34,000 nt of DNA from an uncultured Acidimicrobiales bacterium (GTDB taxonomy: Bacteria; Actinomycetota; Acidimicrobiia; Acidimicrobiales; SHLQ01), in contig CALLAA010000266.1 in the NCBI GenBank assembly GCA_938002955.1, positions 1 through 34,000 on the forward strand, written 5' to 3'. The notes beneath the pieces were generated by a model. The model had not been told where the DNA came from, ran no database searches, and saw only the letters and a list, made by a program, of their open reading frames with translations. Position numbers and translations under genes: made by a program. This document shows, in pieces, positions 2,086 to 17,744 of this stretch. Each line of letters starts with the position of its first letter. The first letter of the stretch is position 1.

Positions 2086-3399
2086 ATGTCCTGGATCGAC
2101 CGCTTCGTGAGCACCTTGCATATTCCGACGCGCAAGTCCTTAGTGATCGAATTGTTCCTCATGGCGCTGGGCGTTGGGCTTGCCATTCTCTTCGCAGTCG
2201 TACTGCTCGAGGACAAGCCACCCGGTGTGGAACCGGCCAGCCTCACGATGACCCTGGCGCTCATCGTGCCAGCACTGTTGGTCCTTCTCGGCCGTCGGCG
2301 CTGGCCACTCACCATCTGTCTCATCAGCGGCATGCTGCTCTCGGCAATCCGACTGCTCGACGTGCCCGAGCTGCAGATCAGCTCGATCACGATCGTCATC
2401 GGCTTCTTCGCCGCCGGCCGCTACGGCGCTCCCGTTCGCCGCGACATTGTTCGCGGCGTCGTCGTGCTCATGATGATCGCCATCATTGCGTGGGAGGCCC
2501 GCGACGTCTGGAGCAACCTCGCCCGATACGGGCTCACCGAACGATTCTTCTTGCTGAGCCTCCTCGGCGGAGTCGCGGCGAACATCGTGCTCTTCGTCGC
2601 CACATGGTTCGCCGGCGACGCATTCCGACGCCGCGTCGAACGCGAGAAGGAACTTGCAGCCCGCACCCTCGAGCTCGAAATGTCACGGGAAGAGAACGCT
2701 CGACGGGCCGTCATGGACGAACGCGTTCGCATCGCGCGAGAGATCCACGATGTCGTTGCTCATCACGTGAGCGTCATGGGACTTCAGGCTGGCGTTGCCC
2801 GTCAGTTGTCCAAGTCCGACTCGGCCGACATCGGCGAACCGCTTCTCGCTATCGAAGAGTCCAGCCGCCAGGCCGTGACCGAGCTCCACCGGCTGCTCGG
2901 GTTCCTGCGCCGCGTCGACGAAACCGACCCCGACGGACTCTCCGCCGACGCGCTCACCCCGATCCCGGGACTGCATCGCTTGCCCGACCTTCGTAGCCAA
3001 CTCGCCGGAGCGGGACTTGCACTGCACCTCGAAATCACCGGTGAGGAACGAGACCTTCCACCGAGCGTCGACCTCAACGCCTATCGCATCTTGCAAGAGG
3101 CACTGACCAACTGCTTGAAGTATGCGGGCGTCGACAGCGCCGACGTGCTCATCGACTACGGCACCGAGCAGCTGTCCCTCGCCATCCTCGATCGCGGCCG
3201 CGGCCCGAACGCCGAACCGAGCATGATCAGCTCAGGCTCTGGCCTACCCGGCATGGCCGAACGAGTAGCGCTACTCGGCGGCACACTGCATCATGGGCCC
3301 CGCACCGGCGGCGGATTCGAAGTGCGTGCCACGCTGCCCTACGAGGGCCACTCGTCGGCAGCGCCGAGCGCCACGGTTCCCGAAGCGGTCACACAATGA
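2086..3399 (+). CDS. Sensor histidine kinase, NarL/DesK (HisKA_3) family
   Basis: 437-residue membrane sensor kinase. The N-terminal half (about residues 20-178) has five or six hydrophobic segments and no large outer loop, so the stimulus is probably sensed in the membrane. A short coiled coil (about 181-212) leads to the phosphoacceptor helix AREIHDVVAHHVSVMG with His221. The C-terminal HATPase has an N box (EALTNCLKYAG) and a G box (GSGLPGMAERVALLGG). The last four bases overlap the response regulator start (ATGA at 3396-3399), so kinase and regulator are made together. The start at 2086 has AAGGAG touching the ATG, which is too close for a ribosome site, but fits a leaderless transcript from TACGGT (2074-2079). 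A GTG at 2107 is the alternative. It is divergent from an ABC-2 exporter, its likely target. Confidence 0.92.
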   Translation: MSWIDRFVSTLHIPTRKSLVIELFLMALGVGLAILFAVVLLEDKPPGVEPASLTMTLALIVPALLVLLGRRRWPLTICLISGMLLSAIRLLDVPELQISSITIVIGFFAAGRYGAPVRRDIVRGVVVLMMIAIIAWEARDVWSNLARYGLTERFFLLSLLGGVAANIVLFVATWFAGDAFRRRVEREKELAARTLELEMSREENARRAVMDERVRIAREIHDVVAHHVSVMGLQAGVARQLSKSDSADIGEPLLAIEESSRQAVTELHRLLGFLRRVDETDPDGLSADALTPIPGLHRLPDLRSQLAGAGLALHLEITGEERDLPPSVDLNAYRILQEALTNCLKYAGVDSADVLIDYGTEQLSLAILDRGRGPNAEPSMISSGSGLPGMAERVALLGGTLHHGPRTGGGFEVRATLPYEGHSSAAPSATVPEAVTQ

Positions 3400-4037
3400 T
3401 TCGGGTGGTGCTCGTCGACGACCAAGAGATGGTGCGCAAAGGACTCGCCATGTTGCTCGGCAACGAGGACGACATCGAGATCGTGGGGCAGGCCGCCGAG
3501 GGAAGCGGTGCGATCCAGGTGGTCGAACGCGAGACTCCCGACGTCGTGTTGATGGACGTGCAGATGCCCGGCATGGACGGCCTCGAAGCAACCAAGCAAC
3601 TGCTCGACAACGGCTCCGCGTCGCGCATCGTGATCCTCACCACGTTCGAACGCGACGAGTACATCTTCGAAGCGCTACGACTCGGAGCGTCGGGTTTCCT
3701 TCTCAAGAACGCCCCGCCCGAAGAATTGATAGACGGCGTCCGGATCGTCGCCTCGGGACAGGCGCTGCTCAGCCCGAGCGTGACTCGACGGGTCATCGGT
3801 AGCTTCTCTGGCGGCAGCGCCCCAACGGAAGCACCAAACGGCCTCGAACACCTCACCGACCGAGAGTCCGAGGTACTCCAGCTCATCGCAGAGGGGCTCT
3901 CCAATGCCGAGATCGCCGAGCGCCTCATCGTCGGCGAAGCCACCGTCAAAACCCACGTGTCGAACGTGCTCTCCAAGCTTCACTTACGCGACAGAGTGCA
4001 AGCGGTCGTGCTCGCACACCGGCACGGCCTGGTCTGA
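3396..4037 (+). CDS. Response regulator, NarL/LuxR family
   Basis: 213-residue partner of the preceding kinase. The receiver domain (about 1-120) shows the acidic pair VDDQ (D8, D9), the phosphorylation site Asp54 in VLMDVQMPGMDG, a TTFERDEY switch region and the conserved Lys in GFLLKNAPPEEL. A Gly/Ser linker precedes a LuxR-type helix-turn-helix (LTDRESEVLQLIAEGLSNAEIA, then VKTHVSNVLSKLHLRDRVQAV). It starts at an ATGA overlap with the kinase stop. The family dimerises on phosphorylation and activates transcription. The divergent ABC exporter is the obvious candidate target, but no operator was identified with confidence. Confidence 0.94.
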   Translation: MIRVVLVDDQEMVRKGLAMLLGNEDDIEIVGQAAEGSGAIQVVERETPDVVLMDVQMPGMDGLEATKQLLDNGSASRIVILTTFERDEYIFEALRLGASGFLLKNAPPEELIDGVRIVASGQALLSPSVTRRVIGSFSGGSAPTEAPNGLEHLTDRESEVLQLIAEGLSNAEIAERLIVGEATVKTHVSNVLSKLHLRDRVQAVVLAHRHGLV

Positions 4038-4800: not shown

Positions 4801-6164
4801 TGGGACTCGGTGCCCGACTAGCGATCGTCTTTGCGACGGTCGCAGCAGCAACGGCACTCCTCGTCGGCGCGGCATCGTATGTAACCGCCGACCGACAGGT
4901 CATCGCCGAGATCGACAGCTTCCTCAAGGAACGTGTCGATGAGATCACGGGCGGCCAACGTGAACAACGCAACGGCCGCGGCAACGACGGGCGCAACAAT
5001 GGGGACGACGGAGACGCGACGCTCACCGCGACCGCCCCCGATGTATTTAGTCCCGACTCCGAAGTTCAGTTTCTCGATCGTGAAGGCAACGTGACCTCTC
5101 GCTCTGGGTCGACGATCGTGATCCCCGTCGACGAAATCGATATCGAAATCGCCGATCGAGATGTCGACACCGTGATCCGAACGATCGACATCGACGGCAC
5201 CGACTTCCGCCTCATCACCGAACACATCGACGGCGTCGGCGCAGTTCAAGTCGCCCGGTCGCTCGATGAGTCCGTCGGTCTTCTCGGCGTACTCCAAACC
5301 CGGCTCGTATTCATTGCGCTGTCGCTCGCCCTCCTCGCAGGAGCGGTCGGTTGGATCGTCGCACAACGAACGACGAGGCCCCTCCGCGCCCTAACCAACG
5401 CGGTCGACGAAGTGGCCGAAACCCGCAACTTCTCGGTGCCGGTCCCGGCCAAGGGCAACGACGAAGTCGGCCGACTCGCCGGAGGCTTCAACCGCATGCT
5501 CGACGCGTTGCAGCTCTCCCAAATGCAACAGCGGCGACTCGTGCAGGACGCCGCACACGAACTTCGCACACCACTGACGAGCATTACCGTCAACGTCGAC
5601 TGGCTCATGATGGCCTCCGATCTCGACGAGAACGCTCGCACCGAAACACTGGGCGGAATTCGTCGCGAACTCACCGCGCTCAACGGTGTGATCGCCGAGA
5701 TTATCGACGTGGCCACCGACTCCTATGTCGCTGCCGAGTTCGTCCCCACCGACCTCGTCAGCGTCGCGAACGACGCCATTGCGCAATTCCACGAGCGAAC
5801 GGGCCGCGAGGTCACCGTGAACGCCCAGCCAACACGGGTCATGGGCGACCCAGCGTCGCTCGATCGAGCGATTACGAACCTGCTGAGCAACGCCGACAAA
5901 TACAGTCCCGCCGATGGCGCCATCACCGTCGACGTCGCCAACGGTTCGATCTTCGTAAACGACTCGGGACCAGGCATCCCCGAAGCCGACCGCCAACTCG
6001 TCTTCCTCCGGTTCTACCGCCGAGACAACGATCGGTCGAAGCCGGGATCCGGACTCGGCCTCTCGATCGTGTCCAGCATCGTCGAACACCACGGCGGTCG
6101 AGTCGACCTAGGCGATTCGTCTCTCGGCGGGGCCCGAATCGGCTTCGTCTTGCCGGAGATCTAA
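4800..6164 (+). CDS. Sensor histidine kinase with HAMP domain (MprB-like)
   Basis: 454-residue kinase. TM1 is about residues 5-27. The outer domain (about 28-167) contains an Asn/Gly/Asp-rich stretch (RNGRGNDGRNNGDDGDA) and an acidic region rich in Ile-Asp pairs. TM2 is about 168-188, followed by HAMP (RTTRPLRALTNAVDEVAE) and HisKA with His253 in DAAHELRTPLTS. The HATPase has the N box (NLLSNADKYSP), the G1 box DSGPGIP, the F box (FLRFYRRD) and the G2 box GSGLGLSIV. It is co-translated with the OmpR-type regulator (TAATG). The Asn/Gly-rich outer stretch echoes the much longer Asn/Gly tail of the Ser/Thr kinase encoded just downstream, hinting that both face the same extracytoplasmic environment. 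That link is inference. Confidence 0.93.
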   Translation: MGLGARLAIVFATVAAATALLVGAASYVTADRQVIAEIDSFLKERVDEITGGQREQRNGRGNDGRNNGDDGDATLTATAPDVFSPDSEVQFLDREGNVTSRSGSTIVIPVDEIDIEIADRDVDTVIRTIDIDGTDFRLITEHIDGVGAVQVARSLDESVGLLGVLQTRLVFIALSLALLAGAVGWIVAQRTTRPLRALTNAVDEVAETRNFSVPVPAKGNDEVGRLAGGFNRMLDALQLSQMQQRRLVQDAAHELRTPLTSITVNVDWLMMASDLDENARTETLGGIRRELTALNGVIAEIIDVATDSYVAAEFVPTDLVSVANDAIAQFHERTGREVTVNAQPTRVMGDPASLDRAITNLLSNADKYSPADGAITVDVANGSIFVNDSGPGIPEADRQLVFLRFYRRDNDRSKPGSGLGLSIVSSIVEHHGGRVDLGDSSLGGARIGFVLPEI

Positions 6165-6189
6165 CGCCCCAGGGGTGCCAAAGCGCATC

Positions 6190-6207
6190 CTGTCACAACC
6201 TTGTCAC
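6190..6207 (+). promoter_or_regulatory. PHO-box-like direct repeat upstream of the kinase operon
   Basis: CTGTCAC (6190-6196), four bases AACC, then TTGTCAC (6201-6207). The two 7-mers differ at one position and repeat at 11-base period, one helical turn. This 7-4-7 design is that of PhoB/OmpR-family operators (the PhoB box is CTGTCAT-N4-CTGTCAT). The site lies in the 109-base gap between an OmpR-type regulator/kinase pair and the six-gene kinase operon, so it is a good candidate operator for that or another OmpR-family regulator. Confidence 0.45.
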
Positions 6208-6273
6208 TTTGTTGATCAAGCACGGTCAGTCCTTCTCGAACATGGAGTTACACCCCATGAAAGGACCTCACCC

Positions 6274-7734
6274 ATGTTTGATCCAGAAGCTGACGACCCA
6301 ACCAACGAAACCACCGGAAACACGCCGATGGTCGCCGGGCTCGAGATTCTCGATGTCATCGCAAGCGGTGGACACGGAACCGTCTACCGAGCTCGCCAAC
6401 AAGAACACGATCGTCTGGTTGCGCTAAAGCTCCTCGACGCTCGATTCGTCGACGACACGACCCGCCGGCGCTTCGACCGCGAGCGTGTTGCGCTCGGACG
6501 GATCTCGGATCATCCCTCGATCGTGTCCCTTCTCGACAGTGGGTACACCGAAACAGGGGCCCCGTACCTGCTTCTCGAATTCGCACCCGGCGGATCTCTC
6601 GCCGAACGTATTGCGCAAGGCCCGCTCGCTCTCGACGAAGCCACTGCGCTCGTGATTGGTTTGGCGGCCGCGACCGAACGCACCCATTCGGCGGGCGTTG
6701 TCCACCGGGACATCAAGCCAGCGAACATCTTGCGCTCGGCCTATGACCACTGGATGCTGAGCGACTTCGGCATTGCCTCCCTGCTCGACCGGTCGGCGAC
6801 GGGCGTGGTGCACGCAAGCTACGCACACACCGCCCCCGAAACCTTCGACGGCAACTCGCCGACTCCGGTCGCCGATGTGTACTCCCTCGCGAGTGTCCTC
6901 GCGACCTGCCTGACCGGGAGCGAGCCTTTCGAAATGGCCGAAGGCGAAGCGGCGGTCTCGGTAATGCGCCGGGTCATGAGCGATCCGTATCCCGATCTGC
7001 GTCGTGCTGGCGTCGCCAACGACCTCGCCGGACTGCTCGAGATGGCACTCAGCAAGGAGCCAGCACAACGGCCGGTTTCGGCACGTTCCTTCGCGGCGGC
7101 CCTCAACGACATCCGTATCGCACACGGCCTGATGCCGGTCGCCATCCGTACCGGCGAAGAAGCATCACCGGACTCGACGGTAGTTGTCGATCATGACGAC
7201 GCAGTCGCTGCGGCGGCATCGAATTGGTCGAGCAGCGACCCCGACGCACCTCACGAGTTTCGAGCACCGAAGCGCCGCATGCGAGCGTTCGCCGCGGCTG
7301 CATGTTTGGTGTTTGCGCTCTTCGGGCTCAGCTTCGCGATTCCATCGGTCACCGGGGTTGGTGACGGCCAGACTGCACTCGCCGCAGTATTCGATGGTGT
7401 CTTCGACGACGACAACGGAGGCAACGGCAATAACAACGGTCCCGGCAACGGCGGCCCAAACAACAACGACAATGCCGACGATGCCGACAACGATGATGAT
7501 GACGGTGCCCCAGTAGCTGCCCAGATTGCCGATGGAGATGGCGACGGCAACAACAACAACGGCAACGGCAACGGAAACGGCCCGGGTAACAACAATGGCA
7601 ACGGTCCTGGCAACGGTGGCCGCGGTGGCAATGGTGGCGGTAATGGCGGTGGCCCCGGAAACGGTGGCGGCAATGGCAATGGCGGAGGCAATGGCCCAGG
7701 CAACGGCGGCGGTAATGGTCCAGGTGGCAACTAA
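6274..7734 (+). CDS. Membrane Ser/Thr protein kinase with Asn/Gly-rich C-terminal tail (PknB-like)
   Basis: 486-residue kinase. The catalytic domain (about 22-285) is complete: Gly loop ASGGHGTVY, Lys52 in VALK, HRDIKPAN (Asp146, Asn151), DFG (164-166), TAPE, and DVYSLASVLATCLTG. A juxtamembrane linker follows, then basic PKRRMR and one membrane segment (about 338-360). The last 110 residues lie outside the cell: acidic NADDADNDDDDG, then DGDGDG, then Asn-Gly-Pro repeats with no PASTA or other known sensor domain. The start at 6274 is set by AAAGGA eight bases upstream. An upstream in-frame start at 6175 codes for unrelated sequence. The stop overlaps the flavoprotein ATG (TAATG at 7732-7736). 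It is the first gene of a six-gene co-translated operon and presumably phosphorylates the downstream products. The FHA protein is the natural reader. Confidence 0.93.
   Translation: MFDPEADDPTNETTGNTPMVAGLEILDVIASGGHGTVYRARQQEHDRLVALKLLDARFVDDTTRRRFDRERVALGRISDHPSIVSLLDSGYTETGAPYLLLEFAPGGSLAERIAQGPLALDEATALVIGLAAATERTHSAGVVHRDIKPANILRSAYDHWMLSDFGIASLLDRSATGVVHASYAHTAPETFDGNSPTPVADVYSLASVLATCLTGSEPFEMAEGEAAVSVMRRVMSDPYPDLRRAGVANDLAGLLEMALSKEPAQRPVSARSFAAALNDIRIAHGLMPVAIRTGEEASPDSTVVVDHDDAVAAAASNWSSSDPDAPHEFRAPKRRMRAFAAAACLVFALFGLSFAIPSVTGVGDGQTALAAVFDGVFDDDNGGNGNNNGPGNGGPNNNDNADDADNDDDDGAPVAAQIADGDGDGNNNNGNGNGNGPGNNNGNGPGNGGRGGNGGGNGGGPGNGGGNGNGGGNGPGNGGGNGPGGN
7408..7731 (+). repeat. Low-complexity GGN/AAY tandem-like region coding Asn-Gly repeats
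   Basis: This is the 3' end of the kinase gene. It consists of short degenerate units of the form GGCAACGG / GGCAATGGTGGC, densest from 7540 to 7731. They code for runs of Asn-Gly, Gly-Gly-Asn and Gly-Pro-Gly-Asn. The region is purine-rich on the plus strand and gives long antisense open frames that are artefacts. Such repeats tend to expand and contract, so length may vary between strains. Confidence 0.8.
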
Positions 7735-9284
7735 TGGATACCGCCCGCGGCATCGCTGATCCCACAGGCACAGCACCTATGACCGCAGACGATCTCCCTG
7801 CCGTGGTCTCGGCCAGCGACATTGCTCGAACCGGACGACGAGTCCTTCGCCGTCGGTTCGTCACCGTCGGGGCCGGGATGGGCTCGCTGGCCATGGTGCA
7901 CATGTGGCGCCTGGCCGGCGTAGCCGATGACGACCTCTGTGCCGTTGGACCCCTCCGCTCACCGAGCGACACCTATGAGTACCTTGCCACCAACAGTCAG
8001 ATTCCTCGGACAGAACGGCTTCGCTCAGACTCGGGGTCGACCATCGACGCCATCTGGGGATGGCCGGGATATGCCCTTCGAGAATCGGTCGAAGATCGCA
8101 ACCCAACACAGGCCCTCCGGGTACTCGGCGAACCCATCGTGAGCGAGTTCTTCACCCCGAAGGCCGGCCAGGTCTACCGCTCGGTCGAACGTGAGACCGA
8201 GCGGATTGGATGGGATCGCATCCTCCAACCGGGCTGGGTGCGACTCATTCGCCGAGCCGAGAGCGGTGGCTACTGGATCATCGTCGACTCGCTCGAACAC
8301 GGCGAGCTCGCCATCGCCGCCGAGCACGTGCACATCGCTGTCGGGTACCCCGGCGTTGCGCTGCTCCCCGACCTCCAAGAGTTTCGAACCGACCACCCCG
8401 AAGCCGGCTACCGCATCGTGAACAGCTACGAACCACACGAGTACTTGTACGACGAACTCCGTCAACGCAAGAGCGTCGTACTCGTTCGCGGCAGTGGCAT
8501 CGTCGCGAGCCGAGTGCTGCAGCGCCTGCTCGATGACATCGAACAACATGGCGCGAAAACAGAGGTCATCCATCTCTTTCGAACGTACGTCGGCGACTCC
8601 CAAGGAACCAGTGCCCGATTCCGCCGGCCCGGCGGCGGCGGGTTCGCCTACCAGGCGTTCAACTATCCAAAGTCGAGCTGGGGCGGGCAGCTACGAGCCG
8701 AACTCGAAACGCTCGACGGCGAACAGCGCGCTGCGCTCATCGACAAGATGGGCGGAACAAACACCGCACCGCGCCGCAGCTGGAGACGCCAGTTGAAGCG
8801 TCATACCAAGACGGGAACGTACCGCCAAGTTCATGGCGTCGTCACCGGCGTCGCCCCAATCGACGAGGCCATCAGAACCACAATCCGTCGACAAGACGGC
8901 TCGGTCGGCGTGCTCGACGCCACGTACGTACTCGACGCCACTGGCCTCCAAGCCGACCCAGCCACACATCCCCTGTACGCCGACCTCATCGCCCGTTCCG
9001 GCGCACGCCGAAACCCCAAAGGCCGACTCGCCGTCGAGCCGACGTTCGAGGTGACCGGAACCGCATCAGGGTCTGGACGGATGTACGCCTCTGGCGCAAT
9101 GACACTAGGTGGCGTGTACGCGGGGGTCGATAGCTTCCTCGGACTTCAATACGCCGCGCTACGCGCCGTCGACCACATGGCCGAGATCGGCGCATTGCCA
9201 CGCATTGGACCGATCCGTTCGGCAACGGGCTGGCTGAAGTGGGCCACCAACCGGCCCTACCGACCCGACGGAGATTCGCGATGA
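7734..9284 (+). CDS. Rossmann-fold FAD/NAD(P)-binding oxidoreductase, unassigned
   Basis: 516-residue soluble protein. The first dinucleotide-binding loop is VTVGAGMGS (about 43-51), probably for FAD. A second, VLVRGSGIVAS (about 249-259), probably binds NAD(P)H, and YVLDATG later resembles the FAD-contacting strand of two-dinucleotide-binding flavoproteins. The first 40 residues are a non-conserved, Arg-containing extension. The arrangement is that of flavin monooxygenases and glutathione-reductase-like enzymes, but no redox CxxxxC motif is seen and I do not recognise a substrate. It starts at TAATG overlapping the kinase stop, with AGGTGG six bases upstream, and ends by ATGA overlap with the 4-TM protein. 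Its position between a protein kinase and a TauE/SafE permease suggests phospho-regulated redox chemistry on a transported compound. That is inference. Confidence 0.8.
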   Translation: MDTARGIADPTGTAPMTADDLPAVVSASDIARTGRRVLRRRFVTVGAGMGSLAMVHMWRLAGVADDDLCAVGPLRSPSDTYEYLATNSQIPRTERLRSDSGSTIDAIWGWPGYALRESVEDRNPTQALRVLGEPIVSEFFTPKAGQVYRSVERETERIGWDRILQPGWVRLIRRAESGGYWIIVDSLEHGELAIAAEHVHIAVGYPGVALLPDLQEFRTDHPEAGYRIVNSYEPHEYLYDELRQRKSVVLVRGSGIVASRVLQRLLDDIEQHGAKTEVIHLFRTYVGDSQGTSARFRRPGGGGFAYQAFNYPKSSWGGQLRAELETLDGEQRAALIDKMGGTNTAPRRSWRRQLKRHTKTGTYRQVHGVVTGVAPIDEAIRTTIRRQDGSVGVLDATYVLDATGLQADPATHPLYADLIARSGARRNPKGRLAVEPTFEVTGTASGSGRMYASGAMTLGGVYAGVDSFLGLQYAALRAVDHMAEIGALPRIGPIRSATGWLKWATNRPYRPDGDSR

Positions 9285-9718
9285 CCCCCACCCTTCTCGG
9301 ACGGCTACAGACCCGCTGGGTCATGGTGTGGACGGTGGGCCTCGCGTGGCTCCTCCTCGTCGGGCCGTGGCTACCGCTCGCCGGCCCAACGACCTCGGCG
9401 GTGTACTTCACCGGCATTACGACCCTCGTCCTTGTCTCGGTCATCGGAACGGGCTGGGAACTCATCTACCACGCAATTCAGCAATATCGCTGGGACAAGG
9501 ACTGGCCGACATTGCTCGGTCTACTCGTTGGACTCACCGAGGGCGCCGTCATCTATCGCTTACTGTCACTCGACATTCCGTGGGATGTCGACCCCATCAC
9601 ACCCGCACCGTTCGCCTGGCAGTTCGGCAGCGTCTGGCTCGCCATCTGGGCGGTCACCAACGGTCCCATCAGAATTCTCTTCCCACGCTGGCGATTCGCC
9701 GGAGGGCGATTCTGGTGA
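9281..9718 (+). CDS. Small integral membrane protein, four predicted TM segments
   Basis: 145-residue hydrophobic protein with no family that I recognise. Four membrane segments are visible: WTVGLAWLLLVGPWLPLAG; VYFTGITTLVLVSVIGTGWEL; LLGLLVGLTEGAVIYRLLSL; and FGSVWLAIWAVTNGPIRIL. A short charged loop (YHAIQQYRWDKDWP) separates the second and third. The ATG overlaps the flavoprotein stop (ATGA), with GGAG seven bases upstream. The stop overlaps the GTG of the permease gene. Given strict co-translation with a TauE/SafE permease, it may be an accessory subunit of that transporter or a membrane anchor for the flavoprotein. Neither can be shown from sequence alone. Confidence 0.8.
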   Translation: MTPTLLGRLQTRWVMVWTVGLAWLLLVGPWLPLAGPTTSAVYFTGITTLVLVSVIGTGWELIYHAIQQYRWDKDWPTLLGLLVGLTEGAVIYRLLSLDIPWDVDPITPAPFAWQFGSVWLAIWAVTNGPIRILFPRWRFAGGRFW

Positions 9719-10833
9719 CCGCAACACTTCCCCTCATCGACCAGGCACGCGCCCGTCGAGCCGAACTGCAACGCATCGGGCAACGGCGCAGCCTTGCACT
9801 CGCCACATCGATCGTGCTCACCTGGATCGCCGTCGTTGTCAGCACCGCCCAACTCGACCGGGTCCTCGACAACAGCGCCGCAGCATTCACCATGATCTTT
9901 GGAAGTTTCGTCGCTGGTTCAACACCACAAGGCGGAGGAGCCGTCGCGTTTCCGGTGTTCACCAAAGTCCTCGGCGTCTCGGCCACCGACGCACGAACAT
10001 TCAGCCTCGCTATCCAAGCCATCGGCATGGGTTCGGCCTCGACGATCATTGCATTGACCGGTCGAGCCGTCGACCGAGCTGCACTCCGACGTACGGTCCC
10101 TGCGGCAATCACTGGCTTCCTTGGCGGTACTGCGCTCTTCGCCCTGGTCACTCCCCCGGCCGCCTACCTCAAGGTCGTCTTCACCCTGCTCGTCGTCGTC
10201 GCCGGCGCATCGACCTGGTTGAGTCGACGCGGCGCGGTCGTCGAGCAGCTCCAGTTCGCCCCACTGCGCAGCACCATGGCCCGCTACTCAATCGTCGGAA
10301 TCGCAGCGCTTGGCGGGTTGGCCTCAGCGCTCTTTGGCAGCGGCGCAGACGTCGCCGTCTACCTATTGCTCACAATCGTTCTCGGTGTACGGCCGAGCAT
10401 CGGCGTGGCGACCTCGGTCGTCACCATGGCGTCGGTCTCGATCGTCGGCCTGATCCTGGCGTTGTCGACAGGCCAGCTGAGCAGCGCAAGCTCCGCACTC
10501 GCTGATTATGACCTCTTTGGCATGTGGTTGGCGGCCATACCCGTCGTGGTCATCGGCGCACCGCTCGGAAGCTGGTTCGCCCAGCGGGTGACCGCCGAAA
10601 CACTCACCCGGTTCATCGGGGTCCTCGCCTCCCTCGAGCTCGTATCGACCGCCCTATTCCTCGACGAACTGCGCACGAACCCAGCGCTTGCGGCATTCGC
10701 AGTCATCGGCCTGGCCATGTCCCTCATCGGAGTACGCCAGATCGTGGCACTTCGAGAACACCTCGCCACCACCCGTCAACCACTCTCCGGCAGCGTTCGC
10801 CGGCTCGATCTCGAAATGGAGTTCACCCAATGA
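9715..10833 (+). CDS. TauE/SafE family membrane permease
   Basis: 372-residue transporter of the sulfite exporter TauE/SafE superfamily. About eight membrane segments form two similar halves. Each half opens with a Gly/Pro-rich motif: GSFVAGSTPQGGGAVAFPVF near residue 60 and GGLASALFGSGADVAVYLL near 200. Such paired motifs are typical of the family, which moves organic or inorganic sulfur oxyanions. I chose the GTG start at 9715 because GGAGGG lies eight bases upstream and it overlaps the previous stop (GTGA). The first 40 residues are basic and cytoplasmic (IDQARARRAELQRIGQRR). The stop overlaps the pseudokinase ATG. The substrate is unknown. The link to a flavoprotein and kinase pair is unusual for this family. 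Confidence 0.87.
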   Translation: MTATLPLIDQARARRAELQRIGQRRSLALATSIVLTWIAVVVSTAQLDRVLDNSAAAFTMIFGSFVAGSTPQGGGAVAFPVFTKVLGVSATDARTFSLAIQAIGMGSASTIIALTGRAVDRAALRRTVPAAITGFLGGTALFALVTPPAAYLKVVFTLLVVVAGASTWLSRRGAVVEQLQFAPLRSTMARYSIVGIAALGGLASALFGSGADVAVYLLLTIVLGVRPSIGVATSVVTMASVSIVGLILALSTGQLSSASSALADYDLFGMWLAAIPVVVIGAPLGSWFAQRVTAETLTRFIGVLASLELVSTALFLDELRTNPALAAFAVIGLAMSLIGVRQIVALREHLATTRQPLSGSVRRLDLEMEFTQ

Positions 10834-11639
10834 AACAACCCGAAATCCTCGGACCATGTCGACTTCTGGCCGACCTCGAGCCGGGCTCGCTCGGGCGACG
10901 GTACCGGTCGATGTTCGACGGGCAGAAAGCGATCGTCGAGACCACCTCGATCCGCGGCGACGGCGAACTCTTCGAACGATCGCTCCGTCGCATCGAGGTC
11001 ATGACGATGGTCGACCATCGTCACCTCGTCCCGATACTGCACGCCGGAATCGAACGAGACGAGCTCTTTATCGTGACCCCCGAGCCGGACATGACCGCCG
11101 ATCGGTGTGCGCCGCTCGGTCTCGACGCCCGAGAGATCATCGGCCAGGTAGCTCGGGGCCTCGCACACCTCCACCAGAACGGAGCTATCCACCGCGACAT
11201 CCAGCGCCGACACATCGGCATGTATGACGGTGTCGTCAAGCTCGGCGGCTTCGCTCTATCCGACATCGACGGCCCCGGCAGTACGCAAGGCGTCGGCCCG
11301 ATCGGCGGGGTGCTCACGATGGCACCATCGATCGTTCGTGGTGAAGCTGCGACAACCGGATCGGACCTCTACAGCCTGGGCGCAACCTTGCACCTGCTCG
11401 CGACCGGCATCGCCGTACATCCCGAGCGGTCCGAGTCACTTGCAACGCGTGTGCTTCGTCTCGCGACCGACGAGCCAACGATCGACCCGCTCCTTCCCAA
11501 GCCACTGGATTCGCTCGTTCGATCGATGCTCGCCGCCGACGGTCTCGACATCGACCACGCCTGCACCGGTCTGATCGCTGAACTCGCAACAACCACGCCC
11601 AGCCACCGCCCCTCAACCACAGGAGACACAGCCCCATGA
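10830..11639 (+). CDS. Protein kinase-like protein, predicted pseudokinase
   Basis: 269-residue soluble protein with a kinase fold but a dismantled active site. The catalytic-loop region is HRDIQRRHIG: HRD is kept (Asp123), but the Lys is Gln125 and the Mg-binding Asn is His128. The DFG triad reads GFA (140-142), the beta-3 Lys position reads Glu37 (AIVE), and the APE Glu is Ser167 (MAPS). The Gly loop is weak (LEPGSLGRRY). Helix F (SDLYSLGATLHLLATG) is well kept, which confirms the family. ATP transfer should be impossible or nearly so, making this a scaffold or allosteric partner. GGAG lies eight bases before the ATG, which overlaps the permease stop. The gene ends by ATGA overlap with the FHA gene. 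The active kinase at the operon start and the FHA protein are the likely partners. Confidence 0.85.
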   Translation: MKQPEILGPCRLLADLEPGSLGRRYRSMFDGQKAIVETTSIRGDGELFERSLRRIEVMTMVDHRHLVPILHAGIERDELFIVTPEPDMTADRCAPLGLDAREIIGQVARGLAHLHQNGAIHRDIQRRHIGMYDGVVKLGGFALSDIDGPGSTQGVGPIGGVLTMAPSIVRGEAATTGSDLYSLGATLHLLATGIAVHPERSESLATRVLRLATDEPTIDPLLPKPLDSLVRSMLAADGLDIDHACTGLIAELATTTPSHRPSTTGDTAP

Positions 11640-12076
11640 AGGCCAAACCAACCCTCACCCCAACGGCGTTGTACTGCCGTTCCACGGGCCGCCGGCTCGC
11701 ACCCGCCGCCGCCTTGGAACCCGCAGAAGGCTCCCCCATCGCAATCGCTGTATTCCACGACGGCCGAACCATTCCGCTCTCCGGCGACACAATTCTCGGC
11801 CGCGCCCCAGACCTCGATCGTCGAGTGATCTCCGGCGACGCAGCCGCAATTACGCTCGATGACCCCACGCGACAACTCTCTCGATGTCATGTTCTGCTGC
11901 GAGTGGATCGTTGGCAGATCGAGGTCATCGACCTCGGATCTCGAAACGGCACGGCGATCTGCGATGAAGACGGCCACTGGCATTCGCTCATGCCCGGCAT
12001 CGGCACGGCGCTCGAAGACGGACAGCTCGTCGGGCTCGCATCCTCGGTCATGCGCGTACATCGCCTCGTGCGGTAG
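11636..12076 (+). CDS. FHA-domain protein
   Basis: 146-residue soluble protein. Residues about 35-143 form a forkhead-associated domain: LGR (54-56), SRCH (82-85) and SRNGT (102-106) are the canonical phosphothreonine-binding loop residues. The N-terminal 34 residues are Ala/Pro-rich with a single Cys (ALYCRSTGRR). FHA domains bind phosphothreonine peptides, here most simply those made by the membrane kinase that heads the operon. AGGAG lies ten bases before the ATG, which overlaps the pseudokinase stop. This is the last gene of the chain: the following MFS gene is 51 bases further on and not overlapped. Confidence 0.92.
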   Translation: MKAKPTLTPTALYCRSTGRRLAPAAALEPAEGSPIAIAVFHDGRTIPLSGDTILGRAPDLDRRVISGDAAAITLDDPTRQLSRCHVLLRVDRWQIEVIDLGSRNGTAICDEDGHWHSLMPGIGTALEDGQLVGLASSVMRVHRLVR

Positions 12077-12127
12077 CGACCACGTTCCCGTCACACCCGG
12101 AGGGAAAACCTGAATCGGGTGGTTTGA

Positions 12128-13399
12128 ATGGATGTGATGTCGGGTCGGTTCGCAGCGTTGTCACAACGAGACTTCCGGACGCTGTGGACGGGCGGCCTCT
12201 TCAGCTTCATGGGCGTGCAGATGCAGTTCTTCCTGCGCGGCATCCTGGCCTGGGACCTCACCGAACGTAAGGACGCTCTCGGTCTCGTCTACTTCATCTT
12301 CGGCCTCTCCTTACTGATCTCCACACCCCTCGGTGGGGTGGCGACCGACCGCCTTCCAAAGCGAATGGTCATGCTCGTCAGCCAGCTCGGCATCGTCGCT
12401 TCGGCAACCGGCATGGCAATCGCAGTGCTCACCGACATCGTTGCCTTCTGGATGTTGCTCGTCGCTTCGGTGCTCCAAGGCTTGGCGTTCGGATTCTTTG
12501 GACCGGCACGGGTTGCGATGGCGAGCGACCTGGTCGGCCGAGAGAACCTCGGCAACGCAATCAGCCTGCAATCGCTAGCAATGAACGGCACCCGAGTCTT
12601 CGCCCCGAGCCTCGCCGGCGCCCTGGTCGGCTGGTCGCTCGTCGGCATTGGCCCCACCTACGTGCTCGCTGCCCTGCTCGCCGTCGGCAGCCTCATCGCG
12701 ACCGCGATGCTGCCCAACCCGCCAGCCGCACTGACGGGATCTGCCCGACCGTTCGCCGACATCGCCGACGGCGTTCGGTACGTCCGTGCGACCCCGCCGA
12801 TCCGAAACATCGTGCTCACGGCCTTCGCCGTGCTCATGTTCGCCTTCAGCTACGTCAGCTTCATCCCGGCACTTATCGAGGGCGAGTTCGGCCTCGAGGA
12901 GCAACACGTTGGGTACTTCACGTCGGCGTCATCAGCGGGGGCCTTGATCGCCGGGTTCTGGGTTGCTGGCCTTGCTGACTCACCTCGGGCGCGAAACATC
13001 ATGACCGCTGCTGGTGTCCTGTTCGGTGCGATGGTCATCGCGCTTGGGCTAGCGCCTGGTTTCACTGCGGCGGTCGTCATTGCGGTGATCGCGGGCGGCG
13101 GAACAACCACCTTCCAGACCCTGTCGAACACCCTTGCGCTTCGCGATGCAAAAGACGAGTTTCAAGGTCGCGTGCAGTCGATCATGCAGCTCGGTTTCGC
13201 CGGTTTTGGCATGACCGCGCTGCCGCTCGGGGTTCTCGCCGAGCAAATCGGCTTGCAGTCGACGCTGGTGCTCATGGGCTCGATCGCCGCGCTCGCCGTC
13301 TTGTCCTACGGCATGATCGACGGTCGTCGCGATCGACCCGATCAACCACCATCCACCGGCGACCCCCAACAGACGGTCACACCAATCGCCCGTCAATAA
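12128..13399 (+). CDS. MFS transporter, EntS/MFS_3-like exporter
   Basis: 423-residue major facilitator protein with about twelve hydrophobic segments. It opens with LSQRDFRTLWTGGLFSFMGVQ, typical of the EntS (enterobactin exporter)/MFS_3 group. The loop GGVATDRLPKRMVML corresponds to the family motif A between TM2 and TM3. The C-terminus is hydrophilic (RRDRPDQPPSTGDPQQ). Start choice is uncertain between ATG 12128 and ATG 12137, as the GGAGGG at 12099-12104 is too distant from either. It may be expressed from the 51-base gap or by read-through from the kinase operon. Transport direction and substrate are unknown. It converges on the GGDEF gene with six bases between stops. Confidence 0.9.
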   Translation: MDVMSGRFAALSQRDFRTLWTGGLFSFMGVQMQFFLRGILAWDLTERKDALGLVYFIFGLSLLISTPLGGVATDRLPKRMVMLVSQLGIVASATGMAIAVLTDIVAFWMLLVASVLQGLAFGFFGPARVAMASDLVGRENLGNAISLQSLAMNGTRVFAPSLAGALVGWSLVGIGPTYVLAALLAVGSLIATAMLPNPPAALTGSARPFADIADGVRYVRATPPIRNIVLTAFAVLMFAFSYVSFIPALIEGEFGLEEQHVGYFTSASSAGALIAGFWVAGLADSPRARNIMTAAGVLFGAMVIALGLAPGFTAAVVIAVIAGGGTTTFQTLSNTLALRDAKDEFQGRVQSIMQLGFAGFGMTALPLGVLAEQIGLQSTLVLMGSIAALAVLSYGMIDGRRDRPDQPPSTGDPQQTVTPIARQ

Positions 13400-13405
13400 T
13401 CGAGC

Positions 13406-14347
13406 CTAAGCAGCCTCGGTAACTTCTCGCCTCGCCTGCTTCTGGCTATACATCATTCGATCCGAGCGACGAAGCCAGCTGGCCATCGATTCACCCGGCA
13501 GGCGACGAGTAGCACCGTACGAACAATGCGGTTTCAATTCGATCTGATCGATCGTGACCGATTGATTCGCGACACGACCGATTTGTTCGAGGCGTTCTTC
13601 AAATTTGGCCTCGTCGATTTCGGGAATGATGATCGCAAATTCATCCCCGCCGAGACGAGCGAGAAGGTCGTCTGTTCCCATTGCCGAGGAGAGGTTCTTT
13701 GCGACCGCCTTCAGCAAACCGTCGCCGGCGACATGGCCATAGGTGTCGTTGACCGCCTTGAAATCGTCGATGTCGAGCATGACGAGCCATGCATCCGCGT
13801 CCATCTCCTGCACCATCTCCATCGCGGAGTCGAACGCACCGCGGTTCGGAATCGACGTCAGTGGATCGGTCAGCGACTGCATCCGCAGTTCCTCCGACAT
13901 CGCAATGAGCTCGCTCGTCCGTTGGAACTCGACCGTGACGTCGCGCTCGACCACATAGAACTTCATATCCTTCGCGGAATAGCTCACGCGAAGCTGGAGA
14001 TAGACCGTCGAACCATCGTGACGGATTGCCTTGAGCTCCATGGTGTCCGTGGAGTCAACTCCGCCGAGGTACATCGCCATAGCTGCGTCGATCATCTGCT
14101 GGGCACTCGACGGGTGGAGGAACTCGGCGCAATTGCGGCCGATGTAGTCGGCGGTGACACCGCCGTGCATCTCTGCCGCTGCGCCGTTCACATCGAGGAT
14201 GACCCCGTATGTATCGAGCACGATCAAGATGTCCTGCGCGAGGTCCATGAGTCGTGAACGATGTACCAGCCGCTCATACTCTTCTTGCTCCAACTCCATA
14301 GTCAAGACGTCGGAAATACCGCCAGAAGTCTTGAGTTTTGGGGGCAT
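13406..14347 (-). CDS. PAS-GGDEF diguanylate cyclase
   Basis: 313 residues from the ATG at 14345-14347 (a TTG at 14359 and an ATG at 14299 are alternatives; none has a good ribosome site). A PAS domain covers about residues 25-145 (ILIVLDTYGVILDVNGAAAEMHG; YVVERDVTVEFQR). A GGDEF domain covers about 150-310, with LTDPLTSIPNRGAF, MLDIDDFKAVNDTYGHVAGD and the active-site loop ARLGGDEFAIII. The motif is intact, so cyclic-di-GMP synthesis is expected. The inhibitory-site Arg upstream of the loop appears to be lost (GTDD-LLAR where RxxD is usual), suggesting no product feedback at that site. There are no membrane segments, so this is a cytosolic sensor. It lies downstream of putA on the same strand, 87 bases away. 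Confidence 0.93.
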   Translation of the reverse strand: MPPKLKTSGGISDVLTMELEQEEYERLVHRSRLMDLAQDILIVLDTYGVILDVNGAAAEMHGGVTADYIGRNCAEFLHPSSAQQMIDAAMAMYLGGVDSTDTMELKAIRHDGSTVYLQLRVSYSAKDMKFYVVERDVTVEFQRTSELIAMSEELRMQSLTDPLTSIPNRGAFDSAMEMVQEMDADAWLVMLDIDDFKAVNDTYGHVAGDGLLKAVAKNLSSAMGTDDLLARLGGDEFAIIIPEIDEAKFEERLEQIGRVANQSVTIDQIELKPHCSYGATRRLPGESMASWLRRSDRMMYSQKQARREVTEAA

Positions 14348-14434: not shown

Positions 14435-17400
14435 TTACGAAACGAGATTGCCGAAGCGATGCAAGGTCGTGCTGATCGCCTGTTCGCGGACATAGTGCAA
14501 CAGTTCGATTCGACCCACCGGGAGCACCGGCTGATCGGCGATGTGAATCGCAGCCTCGGCCGCTGCTCGACGCGTTTCGCGCTCCAACGGTTGCCCGACC
14601 ACCCGCAGCCGTTCGGCCGCCATCTTGCCGAGGCGCTGGCGGAACGCTTCCTCGGTCTCGGTAGCAACATTCGACTCGATCAGCCGAACACCGGTGACCT
14701 GACTCGCTCGGCGGATGAGTGCAATTTCCCGCTCGGACGCGTTCTCTTGGATCCGCACGATGACCGCGTCCATCGCCCGGTACCGAAAGACATTCGCTTC
14801 GCAGAACAACCCTGTCGGATCGTGCTCGACCGCGAAATGCTCGGCCCAAACGTCGGCATAATCGTCGGGCGCTGAGTCGTCGCCGGTCCACGTGCCGAGT
14901 TGGGCCACATAATTCGGCCCACCGGCCTTGGCGCCGGGGCCGACCGACGATCGTTTCCAGCCACCGAATGGTTGCCGCTGAACGATCGCTCCCGTGATAG
15001 CCCGGTTGATGTAGCCATTTCCTACCTCGACGGTCGAGGACCACCGTTCGATCTCACCGGGGTCGAGGGAATGGATCCCACCCGTGAGTCCAAAGGCGCT
15101 CGAGTTCTGAATCTCGATCGCCTCGTCGAGGTCGCTCGCAAACATCAACCCAAGAACGGGTCCGAAACACTCGGTTGCGTGGAACCACGATCCCGGAGTC
15201 ACTCCGTCTCGAACCCCTGGCGACCACAGCGACCGACCTTCGAGCGGATGCTCGACGGGAGCAACGAGCCACGACTCCCCAGAATCCAACTCGGACAAAC
15301 CCTTCATCAACCGCTCGTTCGGGTGGCCGATCAGCGGACCCATGGAGGTCTCGATCGCTGTCGACGGACCAACCTCGAGGCTCTCGACCGCATCGATCAG
15401 CTGGCGGCGGAACCGTGGGGACTCATAGACATCGCCGACAAGGATGGCGAGGCTCGCGGCCGAGCACTTCTGTCCGCTGTGTCCGAACGCGGACTGGACG
15501 AGGTCGGCTACCGCCAGATCGATGTCTGCATTCGGCGTGATGATCAGCGCGTTCTTGCCGCTGGTTTCGGCGAACAGCTTCATGTCCGGCTTCCACGAAC
15601 GGAAGAGATCGGCGGTCTCCGATGCGCCGGTCAAAATGACGGCATCGGCCGAACTGATGAGATGTTGTCCTACCGCGTTCTCCGGGACCAGGGTGAACTG
15701 CACGAGGTCGTCAGGCAGGCCAGCCGCCCAACAGGCTTCAGCCACGATCTCCGCGCACCGCTGCGTTTCGGGCGCTGGCTTGAACAACACTGCGTTGCCT
15801 GCAGCGATGCTCGATAGAACCCCGCCGGTCGGAATAGCGACCGGGAAGTTCCACGGTGGAACGACCGCAACGACACCGAGCGGAGTGAACGTTGCCCCAA
15901 ACGAATCGAGCTCGACTGCCCGATCGCCGTAGTACCGCGCAAAGTCGATCGCTTCGGCCACTTCGCCGTCTGCTTCAACGAAGGTCTTGTTGGCTTCGTG
16001 CACCATTGTCGTGATGAGCTCACCTCGGCGCGCGGCGAGTTCATCTGCGATTCGGTGAAGTGCTCGTTGACGCTCCGATAGCGGCATCTGAGTCCAGTTC
16101 GTCTGAGCGGCGTTTGCCCGTGTCAACGCTGCATCTACGCCCTCCACCGTGTCGATGGTCTCGGCCTGAACCGAGAGTGCCGATGCGGACATCACCTGGT
16201 CGATCCACTTCTGGTTGCCGGCAAGCGTCGGATCGGTTTCGGGCTCGTTAAGGAACGGCTCACCAATGGCGTACGCAGCGGTCGGCTCGTCGAGTCGATT
16301 CTGCGTCCGGCGCGGCGTCGACCCTACGTCACTGCGCCGTGCCAGCGAGGAGCGAAAGATCTCGGCTTGGGTGAGGAAGGTCTCCGAACCAGGTTCGAGA
16401 TCGAAGAGATGTCGCAAGAAGTTGTCATCGGCCGCCGTCTCTTCGAGACGTCGGAAGAGATAGCTGATCGCAACGTCAAAGTCCGAGGCGGCGACGGCCG
16501 GGGTGTACAGCAACATCGGCGAAACATCGCCGGACTGCTCGGTCGTCTCGCGCACGGTCAGCGCTTGTGCTGGCGCCATGCCCTGCAACATCTCGAACTG
16601 CACCCGGTCGCTGACCCCGCGCTCGTTTGCGAGCAGATGTGTCCACGCAACGTCGAACAAGTTGTGGCTCGCGAGACCAAGTCGCACGCCCTGGGTCCGT
16701 TCGGGCGTGAGGAGCCAGTCGAGGCATCGCTTGTAGTTGGCGTCAGCCTCGACCTTCGTTGCATACGGCGCCTGTTCCCAACCGTGCATGGCCGCGTCGA
16801 CACGTTCCATCGCCAGGTTCGCACCTTTGACCAAACGGACCTTTACTTCACCGCCATCGCTGGCATGGCGGTCGTTGGCCCAACCGACCAGCTCCTGCAA
16901 CGCAGCGAACGAGTCCGGAAGGTAAGCCTGCAAGACAATGCCTGCATCGACCGAGCGGAGATGCGGCTCGCTCAACACACTCATGAACGCACGAAGCGTC
17001 AGATCGAGGTCGTGGTACTCCTCCATATCGAAGTTGATGAACGTGGGGCTCGATGCCGTCGAGGCGGTCTCGACCAGTAGCCGAAGCTTCTCGGTGACTC
17101 GACGAAGGCTGTCGGCATGGGCGAAGTGGTTGAGCTGCGAAGCCACCGCCGAGATCTTCACCGACACGTAGTCGATGTCGGGTTGTTCGACGAGTGCAAT
17201 CAGTTCTTCAAGACGACGCTTGGCTTCGCGCTCGCCGAGGACGGCTTCGCCGAGCAGGTTCACGTTCAGCGCAAAGCCATCGGCACGAGTCCGGCCGAGG
17301 TGCGCGGCGAGCTTGTCATTCTCGGCGGGGGCCACGAGGTGTCCCACGATCGATCGCATGCGTCGCCGAGCCAACGGCAAAACGATGCCCGGGAGAAGCG

Positions 17401-17692
17401 GACCGAGTCGAGCACCGGCTTGGAGCAACGTCTTGTCGATCGGCGACAGAAAACCTGGTAGCCGTCGTTCTGCGACGATGGCCGCCAACTGATGAGCGGC
17501 GACCCGGTTGTCGTCCGGGCGAACAACCCGGTCGACGAACTGCATCACGAAACCAACGCCGTCGGCATCGGTCACGATCCCTTCGAGCTGCTCCATGGTT
17601 TCCGCGCTCTCGGAAGTCTCGTGCTGGGGTGCTCGTACCAACCAGCGCTCCACGAGAGCGATGGCCGGGTCTGCAAGATCGTCGGCGTTCAT
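14435..17692 (-). CDS. putA: Bifunctional proline dehydrogenase / glutamate-semialdehyde dehydrogenase
   Basis: 1085-residue PutA, which oxidises L-proline to P5C (FAD) and then to glutamate (NAD). The N-terminal half is a proline dehydrogenase TIM barrel: LPGIVLPLARRRMRSIVGHL, DYVSVKISAVASQLN, FINFDMEEYHDLDLTL, VKVRLVKGANLAMERV and LASHNLFDVAW. The C-terminal half is an aldehyde dehydrogenase with PWNFPVAIPTGG, LFAETSGKNALIITP (the general-base region) and GHSGQKCSAAS (catalytic Cys). The final ~140 residues are a C-terminal extension. The start is MNADDLADPAIALVERWLV at 17690-17692; in-frame sequence upstream overlaps the divergent regulator. There is no DNA-binding ribbon-helix-helix N-terminus as in enterobacterial PutA, so regulation is probably by the divergent AraC-type protein. 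A hairpin with a TTCG loop lies eight bases before the ATG. Confidence 0.95.
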   Translation of the reverse strand: MNADDLADPAIALVERWLVRAPQHETSESAETMEQLEGIVTDADGVGFVMQFVDRVVRPDDNRVAAHQLAAIVAERRLPGFLSPIDKTLLQAGARLGPLLPGIVLPLARRRMRSIVGHLVAPAENDKLAAHLGRTRADGFALNVNLLGEAVLGEREAKRRLEELIALVEQPDIDYVSVKISAVASQLNHFAHADSLRRVTEKLRLLVETASTASSPTFINFDMEEYHDLDLTLRAFMSVLSEPHLRSVDAGIVLQAYLPDSFAALQELVGWANDRHASDGGEVKVRLVKGANLAMERVDAAMHGWEQAPYATKVEADANYKRCLDWLLTPERTQGVRLGLASHNLFDVAWTHLLANERGVSDRVQFEMLQGMAPAQALTVRETTEQSGDVSPMLLYTPAVAASDFDVAISYLFRRLEETAADDNFLRHLFDLEPGSETFLTQAEIFRSSLARRSDVGSTPRRTQNRLDEPTAAYAIGEPFLNEPETDPTLAGNQKWIDQVMSASALSVQAETIDTVEGVDAALTRANAAQTNWTQMPLSERQRALHRIADELAARRGELITTMVHEANKTFVEADGEVAEAIDFARYYGDRAVELDSFGATFTPLGVVAVVPPWNFPVAIPTGGVLSSIAAGNAVLFKPAPETQRCAEIVAEACWAAGLPDDLVQFTLVPENAVGQHLISSADAVILTGASETADLFRSWKPDMKLFAETSGKNALIITPNADIDLAVADLVQSAFGHSGQKCSAASLAILVGDVYESPRFRRQLIDAVESLEVGPSTAIETSMGPLIGHPNERLMKGLSELDSGESWLVAPVEHPLEGRSLWSPGVRDGVTPGSWFHATECFGPVLGLMFASDLDEAIEIQNSSAFGLTGGIHSLDPGEIERWSSTVEVGNGYINRAITGAIVQRQPFGGWKRSSVGPGAKAGGPNYVAQLGTWTGDDSAPDDYADVWAEHFAVEHDPTGLFCEANVFRYRAMDAVIVRIQENASEREIALIRRASQVTGVRLIESNVATETEEAFRQRLGKMAAERLRVVGQPLERETRRAAAEAAIHIADQPVLPVGRIELLHYVREQAISTTLHRFGNLVS

Positions 17693-17744
17693 ACCCCAAG
17701 CGTGGCGAACCACGCCAAAAACGTCTTGTACGATGCCGACCACA
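17693..17744. promoter_or_regulatory. putA / AraC-regulator divergent promoter with perfect palindrome
   Basis: 52-base gap. GCGTGG (17700-17705), CGAA, CCACGC (17710-17715) is a perfect 16-base dyad, overlapped by TGGCG-N5-CGCCA (17703-17717). It is a candidate operator for the divergent regulator. In the putA transcript the same bases would form a hairpin closed by a UUCG loop, just ahead of the start codon. On the plus strand TACGAT (17729-17734) is a possible -10 for the regulator gene. Confidence 0.45.

Follow-up and report, generated by a model that had tools for sequence, protein, structure and literature searches.

What brings a serine/threonine kinase, a flavoprotein, a four-transmembrane (4-TM) protein, a permease, a pseudokinase, and an FHA protein together in one run of overlapping genes? 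The question is raised by a six-gene unit in an uncultured Acidimicrobiales bacterium (assembly GCA_938002955.1, contig CALLAA010000266.1, positions 1–34,000; this whole stretch of 34,000 nucleotides is hereafter the window). The unit is a real module, conserved across many actinobacteria, and its core is the flavoprotein and the 4-TM protein, not the kinase pair. In positions of the whole window, it spans 6274–12076 on the plus strand and comprises the following open reading frames (ORFs):

6274..7734, +, K1, an active-looking Ser/Thr kinase with a kinase domain, one transmembrane segment (by eye), and a Gly/Asn/Asp-rich outer tail (PF00069, 132.6 bits)
7734..9284, +, flavoprotein (flavin adenine dinucleotide, FAD) with two dinucleotide-binding folds (AlphaFold mean confidence, pLDDT, 86.9; best Foldseek matches PvdA, SidA, putrescine hydroxylase, and DfoA)
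9281..9718, +, 4-TM protein, the partner of the flavoprotein by co-occurrence, with four long helices (pLDDT 88.1)
9715..10833, +, TauE/SafE family permease with a GTG start (PF01925, 68.2 bits versus a cut-off of 32.6)
10830..11639, +, pseudokinase, a degenerate member of the module's small-kinase family (PF00069, 58.9 bits; motif residues E/D/H/G)
11636..12076, +, short FHA protein (PF00498, 28.2 bits versus a cut-off of 20.7)

A profile scan of named genomes returned 482 flavoprotein relatives. The 80 top-ranking loci were kept (some sharing an isolate), and their record titles cover Acidimicrobiales, Ilumatobacter, Thermoleophilia, Miltoncostaeaceae, Nitriliruptoraceae, Streptosporangium and kin, Micromonospora and kin, Nocardioides, Geodermatophilus, Nocardia, Gordonia, and Parafrankia. 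Given that the gene caller was crude, synteny counts are based on the profile search instead of called genes. In all 80 named loci, the 4-TM gene is the next same-strand gene after the flavoprotein gene. Of 248 genomes of the order, 31 were matched by the profiles of both proteins, run separately, and none by one profile alone; across the phylum, the figure was 4 of 197, likewise with no lone match (own genome counted in both sets). The two genes lie side by side in 28 of the 31 genomes. When 59 whole genomes were searched, 12, again counting the window's own, had the flavoprotein. Even the distant loci L023, L025, and L026, with flavoprotein and 4-TM genes in view, retain the 4-base overlap between them. 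By this co-occurrence, it is strongly supported that the two proteins work as a pair, and this pair is probably the ancestral unit.

Recurrence of the same six genes, in order, elsewhere was what the earlier note on this DNA had looked to for support, and it is seen in 9 of the 80 named loci, as well as in genomes of the same genus (L016) and another family (G042, which is L018). The last five genes keep the window's order in 19 of the 80, and the looser unit of flavoprotein, 4-TM protein, FHA protein, kinase, and transporter is spread far wider than the exact six-gene order. Among the 64 named loci with at least 6.5 kb downstream (genes scored inside 7.5 kb), an FHA gene is nearby in 63 and a kinase gene in 53, and the transporter is TauE in 16, an Na+/H+ exchanger in 35, and neither in 13. 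A second common layout consists of flavoprotein, 4-TM protein, and FHA protein plus the exchanger and a kinase. TauE and the exchanger never occur together at any of the 80 loci; reading this exclusivity as many independent events was rejected, as a quick flavoprotein tree requires a single transporter change (branch support 58, with long-branch warnings).

Direct reading of the ORFs confirmed the six genes, their strand, and the five stop/start overlaps first noted, which are, in gene order, TAATG, ATGA, GTGA, ATGA, and ATGA. We surveyed the equivalent junctions in 24 chosen window-like loci of the 80 (the TauE loci L039, L046, and L049 were left out). An exact 4-base overlap was present at 15 of 19 4-TM/TauE junctions, 17 of 19 TauE/kinase junctions, and 17 of 22 kinase/FHA junctions, and the start codon fell −20 to +15 from the stop at 19 of 24 flavoprotein/4-TM and 9 of 11 kinase/flavoprotein junctions, all with a bias toward overlap since the script took the start closest to that spacing. 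The layout is beyond chance, because the order and the mostly 4-base overlaps recur where the flavoproteins are ~50% identical. The earlier note held that a promoter and terminator inside the chain would count against it; a pattern scan of 6000–12300 gave no sigma-70-like promoter (shuffle mean 1.2), the sigma-70 consensus being a weak test in this lineage, and four terminator-like sites, every one on the minus strand (shuffle mean 3.5). Judging from gene structure alone, the overlaps would keep the six products in step.

Pfam scores lay above the cut-off for four of the six proteins, namely K1, the TauE permease, the pseudokinase (kinase fold), and the FHA protein, and neither the flavoprotein nor the 4-TM protein matched a Pfam or NCBIfam family at E up to 0.1. 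The AlphaFold model of the flavoprotein has the fold of N-hydroxylating flavin monooxygenases, with best Foldseek matches from E 4.8e-17 (TM-score by target 0.58–0.74, identity 12–16%) and lipoamide dehydrogenases ranking after them; the sequence searches placed it in no such family. There was also a weak, non-significant profile match to the quinone reductase FSP1 (E 0.086). Across 44 aligned rows, invariant residues include G46, G48, G50, and S51; R252, G253, and G255; and D401, T403, and G404, which we set beside what we take to be the FAD- and NAD(P)-binding and ATG motifs. Residues 286–290 and 306–312 are modeled with low confidence, and R298, G303, Y306, Q307, F309, and N310, invariant in the same rows, lie within this stretch, as would be expected of a partner- or substrate-binding loop. 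The 4-TM protein had no PDB sequence match, and Foldseek of its model against the PDB gave nothing better than E 2.9, the top entries being globins. Of its 20 invariant residues, 16 are found at the N-terminal end, in the connection from helix 2 to helix 3, or in the segment following helix 4; with the N-terminus on the inside, these positions would all share one face of the membrane.

K1 retains the catalytic residues K, D, N, and D and is a Hanks-type Ser/Thr kinase. The earlier note had its outer tail sensing a signal, a role we rejected on the tail's low complexity, both in the window and in the nearest kin. Of 13 related upstream kinases, six (L027–L031 and L037), all nearest the window, have such low-complexity tails (those of L027 and L029 are partly masked); an aligned ectodomain is common to six, and L062 has another. 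For the ectodomain, the best PDB match was at E 0.23, and a Pfam scan gave nothing above the cut-off. The downstream kinase of the window has the kinase fold with catalytic residues lost, as in bacterial pseudokinases: the VAIK Lys is Glu, the catalytic-loop Asn is His, and the DFG Asp is Gly, with the HRD Asp retained. By this retained HRD it falls outside the MviN-type ActPs3 pseudokinases, in which, per the available part of the source, VAIK, HRDxxxxN, and DFG are all divergent (PMC12599244).

Most relatives of this pseudokinase are catalytically intact. Departures from K/D/N/D occur in 14 of 53 scorable downstream kinases (window included), a count that covers same-strand downstream genes only, excludes gapped rows and upstream or opposite-strand loci (e.g., Nocardioides, L046, L049), takes in the different type of kinase at L105, and overstates truly dead kinases, given that mild substitutions (D to E) make up some of the 14 and L031 is perhaps an alignment shift. 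A quick tree of these kinases has six changes of catalytic state. A link between the presence of an upstream kinase and decay of the downstream one (Fisher p 0.003 on raw counts) was rejected, as independent tree pairs give it no support. Nor did we adopt an anti-phage reading (PD-T4-6, MADS kinases): K1 and the pseudokinase match many kinase models in PADLOC, these being generic kinase-domain matches, and the other four module proteins had none at E up to 0.01.

The window's FHA domain carries GR, S-x-x-H, and NG, which we take to be its phosphothreonine-binding residues. In most relatives, the FHA domain is preceded by a CxxC zinc ribbon and a longer N-terminal region (~150 residues in ten examples), for which no solved relative was found in the PDB (best match E 0.06, not FhaA). 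The ribbon is reduced to a remnant in the window and L028–L030, the N-terminal domain is gone in the window, and cysteines have been lost in L033, L035, and L044.

How might these parts act together? With slightly less than even confidence, we read the unit as a phospho-regulated membrane redox/transport module, in which a flavoenzyme is coupled to a transporter; its docking, phospho-gating, transport coupling, and substrate are what we infer beyond the gene data. The flavoprotein is probably an NAD(P)H-dependent FAD enzyme, judging from its modeled two-Rossmann fold. It would dock where the 4-TM protein presents its conserved face to the cytoplasm and function only as that pair, on a substrate that may be a membrane-borne molecule or an electron carrier. 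The permease, or the Na+/H+ exchanger in other orders, could then move the product or offset the ion or proton cost. K1 would phosphorylate threonines of the pseudokinase and/or permease, and the FHA protein would bind these phosphothreonines and, with the pseudokinase as scaffold, gate the flavoenzyme–transporter assembly. This phospho-gating is proposed because PknB-MviN-FhaA and PknF-Rv1747 (compared below) act similarly on other membrane proteins. Control of a redox/transport unit by phosphorylation, as in the earlier note, is plausible. Evenly balanced, in our judgment, is a further proposal: together, the flavoprotein and 4-TM protein would constitute a new membrane flavoenzyme, obligately of two proteins and widespread among Actinobacteria. 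Phospho-signaling and an exchangeable transporter slot would have been added to it, and the attached small kinase would have repeatedly lost catalytic residues and been kept as a scaffold.

Several points weigh against the reading as a phospho-regulated module. The paired genes are far apart in G020, ~9 kb apart in G408, and on separate contigs in G026, and as the 4-TM profile was built from flavoprotein-adjacent copies, a far-diverged lone 4-TM protein could escape it. The named loci, as the best 80 of 482, are skewed to closer relatives, and related genomes are not independent, such that the 31 co-occurrence genomes are not 31 separate events. The likeness of the flavoprotein to N-hydroxylating monooxygenases is one of fold, at the low identity given above and outside any sequence family. 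All eight Nocardia loci (L059, L081, L088, L094, L096, L100, L102, and L104) have the flavoprotein, 4-TM, and FHA genes with no kinase or transporter within 7.5 kb, and the distant relatives L023–L026 have the flavoprotein and 4-TM genes alone in the stretch examined; from these layouts, the kinase and transporter are dispensable for the core.

The surroundings of these reduced loci vary. In Nocardia, RuBisCO, CbbX, FBPase, and phosphoribulokinase-like genes lie downstream of the trio at L059 and NuoA/B/D-like (complex I-like) genes upstream of it at L102, and the same clusters are present at most other Nocardia loci (names by eye). At L026, a second, divergent flavoprotein/4-TM pair (8906–14281) lies directly upstream of sulfite/nitrite reductase and F420 FrhB-type genes. 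A related protein of 413–461 amino acids is encoded next to or near the distant flavoprotein/4-TM genes of L024, L109, L110, L111, L113, and L118, the L024 copy having Pfam beta-propeller similarity. The distant-clade neighbors (the beta-propeller protein, amine oxidases, TldD/PmbA, and sulfite reductase) were rejected as a clue to function, their themes being mixed.

Other mechanisms could account for the same genes. The flavoprotein could be a membrane NAD(P)H:quinone oxidoreductase that donates electrons to a menaquinone that the 4-TM protein holds, with the transporter using or offsetting the ion flux. Its pyridine-nucleotide oxidoreductase type of fold, the weak FSP1 match, the complex I-like genes near the Nocardia trio, and the activation of a CPA2 exporter by the quinone-reducing KefF in the available text of PMC10224563 all point this way; however, N-hydroxylating monooxygenase folds rank ahead of lipoamide dehydrogenases, the structural search with the 4-TM model gave nothing significant (top matches globins, E 2.9 or worse), and the complex I neighborhood belongs to a single genus, and we consider the idea unlikely. 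Taking the monooxygenase-like fold at face value, the flavoprotein might instead N- or S-oxygenate a substrate, small or linked to a lipid, that the 4-TM protein presents, with TauE exporting a sulfur-containing or acidic product. The family of the permease and the reductase genes beside the divergent L026 pair suit this chemistry, although L026 is a single case, biosynthetic genes were not seen to co-occur with the module, and the same flavoprotein family is accompanied by the exchanger in 35 of the 64 loci and by neither transporter in 13; we find it rather improbable.

The conserved pair could also be co-transcribed by chance with a general signaling and transport set, with no joint mechanism. 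While this accords with the pair standing without kinase, FHA, or transporter genes in distant relatives and with the Nocardia layout, the gene order and overlaps are maintained across long divergence and an FHA gene accompanies 63 of the 64 loci, which leaves it very unlikely.

The genes flanking the module differ from it in their conservation. Directly upstream of K1 is an OmpR/HAMP two-component pair, followed by a short intergenic region:

6165..6273, +, upstream control region between the HAMP kinase and K1, with a direct repeat at 6191–6207 and the element CTTGTCACTTTGTTG

As the earlier note stated, the OmpR/HAMP pair is the immediate neighbor; as a member of the unit it was rejected, given that both proteins are best matches together in 2 of the 80 named loci and no homologue was found at two same-genus loci. 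The repeat, TGTCAC-N5-TGTCAC, is an exact direct repeat with an 11-base period and the sole match in the window, where 22 of 100 shuffles gave at least one match at up to 1 mismatch. Direct repeats with an 11-base period are typical of OmpR/PhoB sites. The exact repeat occurs at 2 sites in the 3.93 Mb genome (the other at G000:C230:18388; reversed control 0), with no further exact copy across 2.0 Mb of compared sequence, sister loci included. The adjacent element (CTTG-C-TT-GTTG) is partly conserved in three sister loci in an alignment of four sequences. Local control of the unit by the adjacent regulator in this species is possible.

In 15 of the 80 loci, a NarL-type histidine kinase/regulator pair like that at 2086–4037 of the window is encoded on the opposite strand, ~2–5 kb upstream of the flavoprotein gene (L055, L057, L060, L061, L063, L064, L067, L069, L070, L072, L076, L082, L085, L089, and L093). 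Fourteen of the 15 belong to a single group, the Streptosporangiales, and pairs of this kind are common; we read this as probable local synteny. Downstream, an MFS gene (12128–13399) on the same strand starts 51 bases past the FHA stop, with no terminator-like site in the gap, and may share the module's transcript. It was rejected as a seventh member, having no homologue at the loci of 12 relatives and never being the best match in the 80. Further on, a 1133-amino acid ORF (14435–17836, minus strand) resembles, by eye, a bifunctional proline/P5C dehydrogenase.

How much of this is new can be judged against known systems. A kinase, dead kinase, and FHA protein together, unfamiliar to the earlier note, have in fact been described in the control of the mycobacterial cell wall: in the available text of PMC12599244 and PMC11898655, PknB phosphorylates the pseudokinase domain of MviN, which then recruits FhaA. 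The effect of FhaA on wall synthesis, inhibition or promotion, is disputed, the accessible part of PMC11898655 arguing for promotion. Like the module, this trio consists of an active kinase, a pseudokinase domain, and an FHA reader acting on a membrane protein. FhaA is also built like the larger FHA proteins of the module, with a linker joining an N-terminal domain that has no known relatives to an FHA domain at the C-terminus (PMC11898655, as available), though the module's N-terminal domain gave no PDB match to FhaA (its one match, at E 0.06, was another protein). Unlike in the module, the pseudokinase is a domain of the transmembrane flippase MviN, and the trio, as far as these texts go, has no counterpart of the flavoprotein.

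A kinase modulating a transporter encoded in the same operon is likewise known from PknF and Rv1747, a two-gene operon in which PknF positively modulates Rv1747 (PMC3908365, in part) with involvement of FHA domains (PMC5549992, in part). Rv1747, however, is an ABC transporter carrying its own FHA domains, and the operon lacks a flavoprotein, 4-TM protein, and pseudokinase; the module's permease is TauE, and Pfam found no ABC domain in its six proteins. Closer on the redox side is KefF, a quinone-reducing flavoprotein oxidoreductase whose gene overlaps that of the proton-coupled CPA2 exporter KefC, which it activates (PMC10224563, from the available text). KefF differs in being a small FMN quinone reductase, and that text mentions no kinase or FHA protein. 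The window has TauE and a differently folded flavoprotein in place of a CPA2 exporter with a KTN domain and a flavodoxin-like subunit, and the one CPA2 exchanger scanned among the relatives (L054) has a USP-like tail with no KTN match at E up to 0.5.

PvdA, SidA, and DfoA share the overall fold of the flavoprotein, with its two dinucleotide-binding domains, but the module's enzyme stands apart by its 12–16% identity, lack of a Pfam match, fixed 4-TM partner, and conserved, low-confidence stretch at 298–310. A literature search of a limited collection found no description of a flavoprotein/4-TM core module. If our reading is true, two nameless protein families that co-travel across Actinobacteria would gain a function, and kinase–pseudokinase–FHA control would extend beyond cell wall synthesis into membrane redox chemistry, with transporter exchange and the recurrent decay of kinase catalytic residues offering ready comparisons among related species. 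Set beside these systems, the kinase/FHA wiring is a variant of known control, and the flavoprotein/4-TM core pair is the new part.

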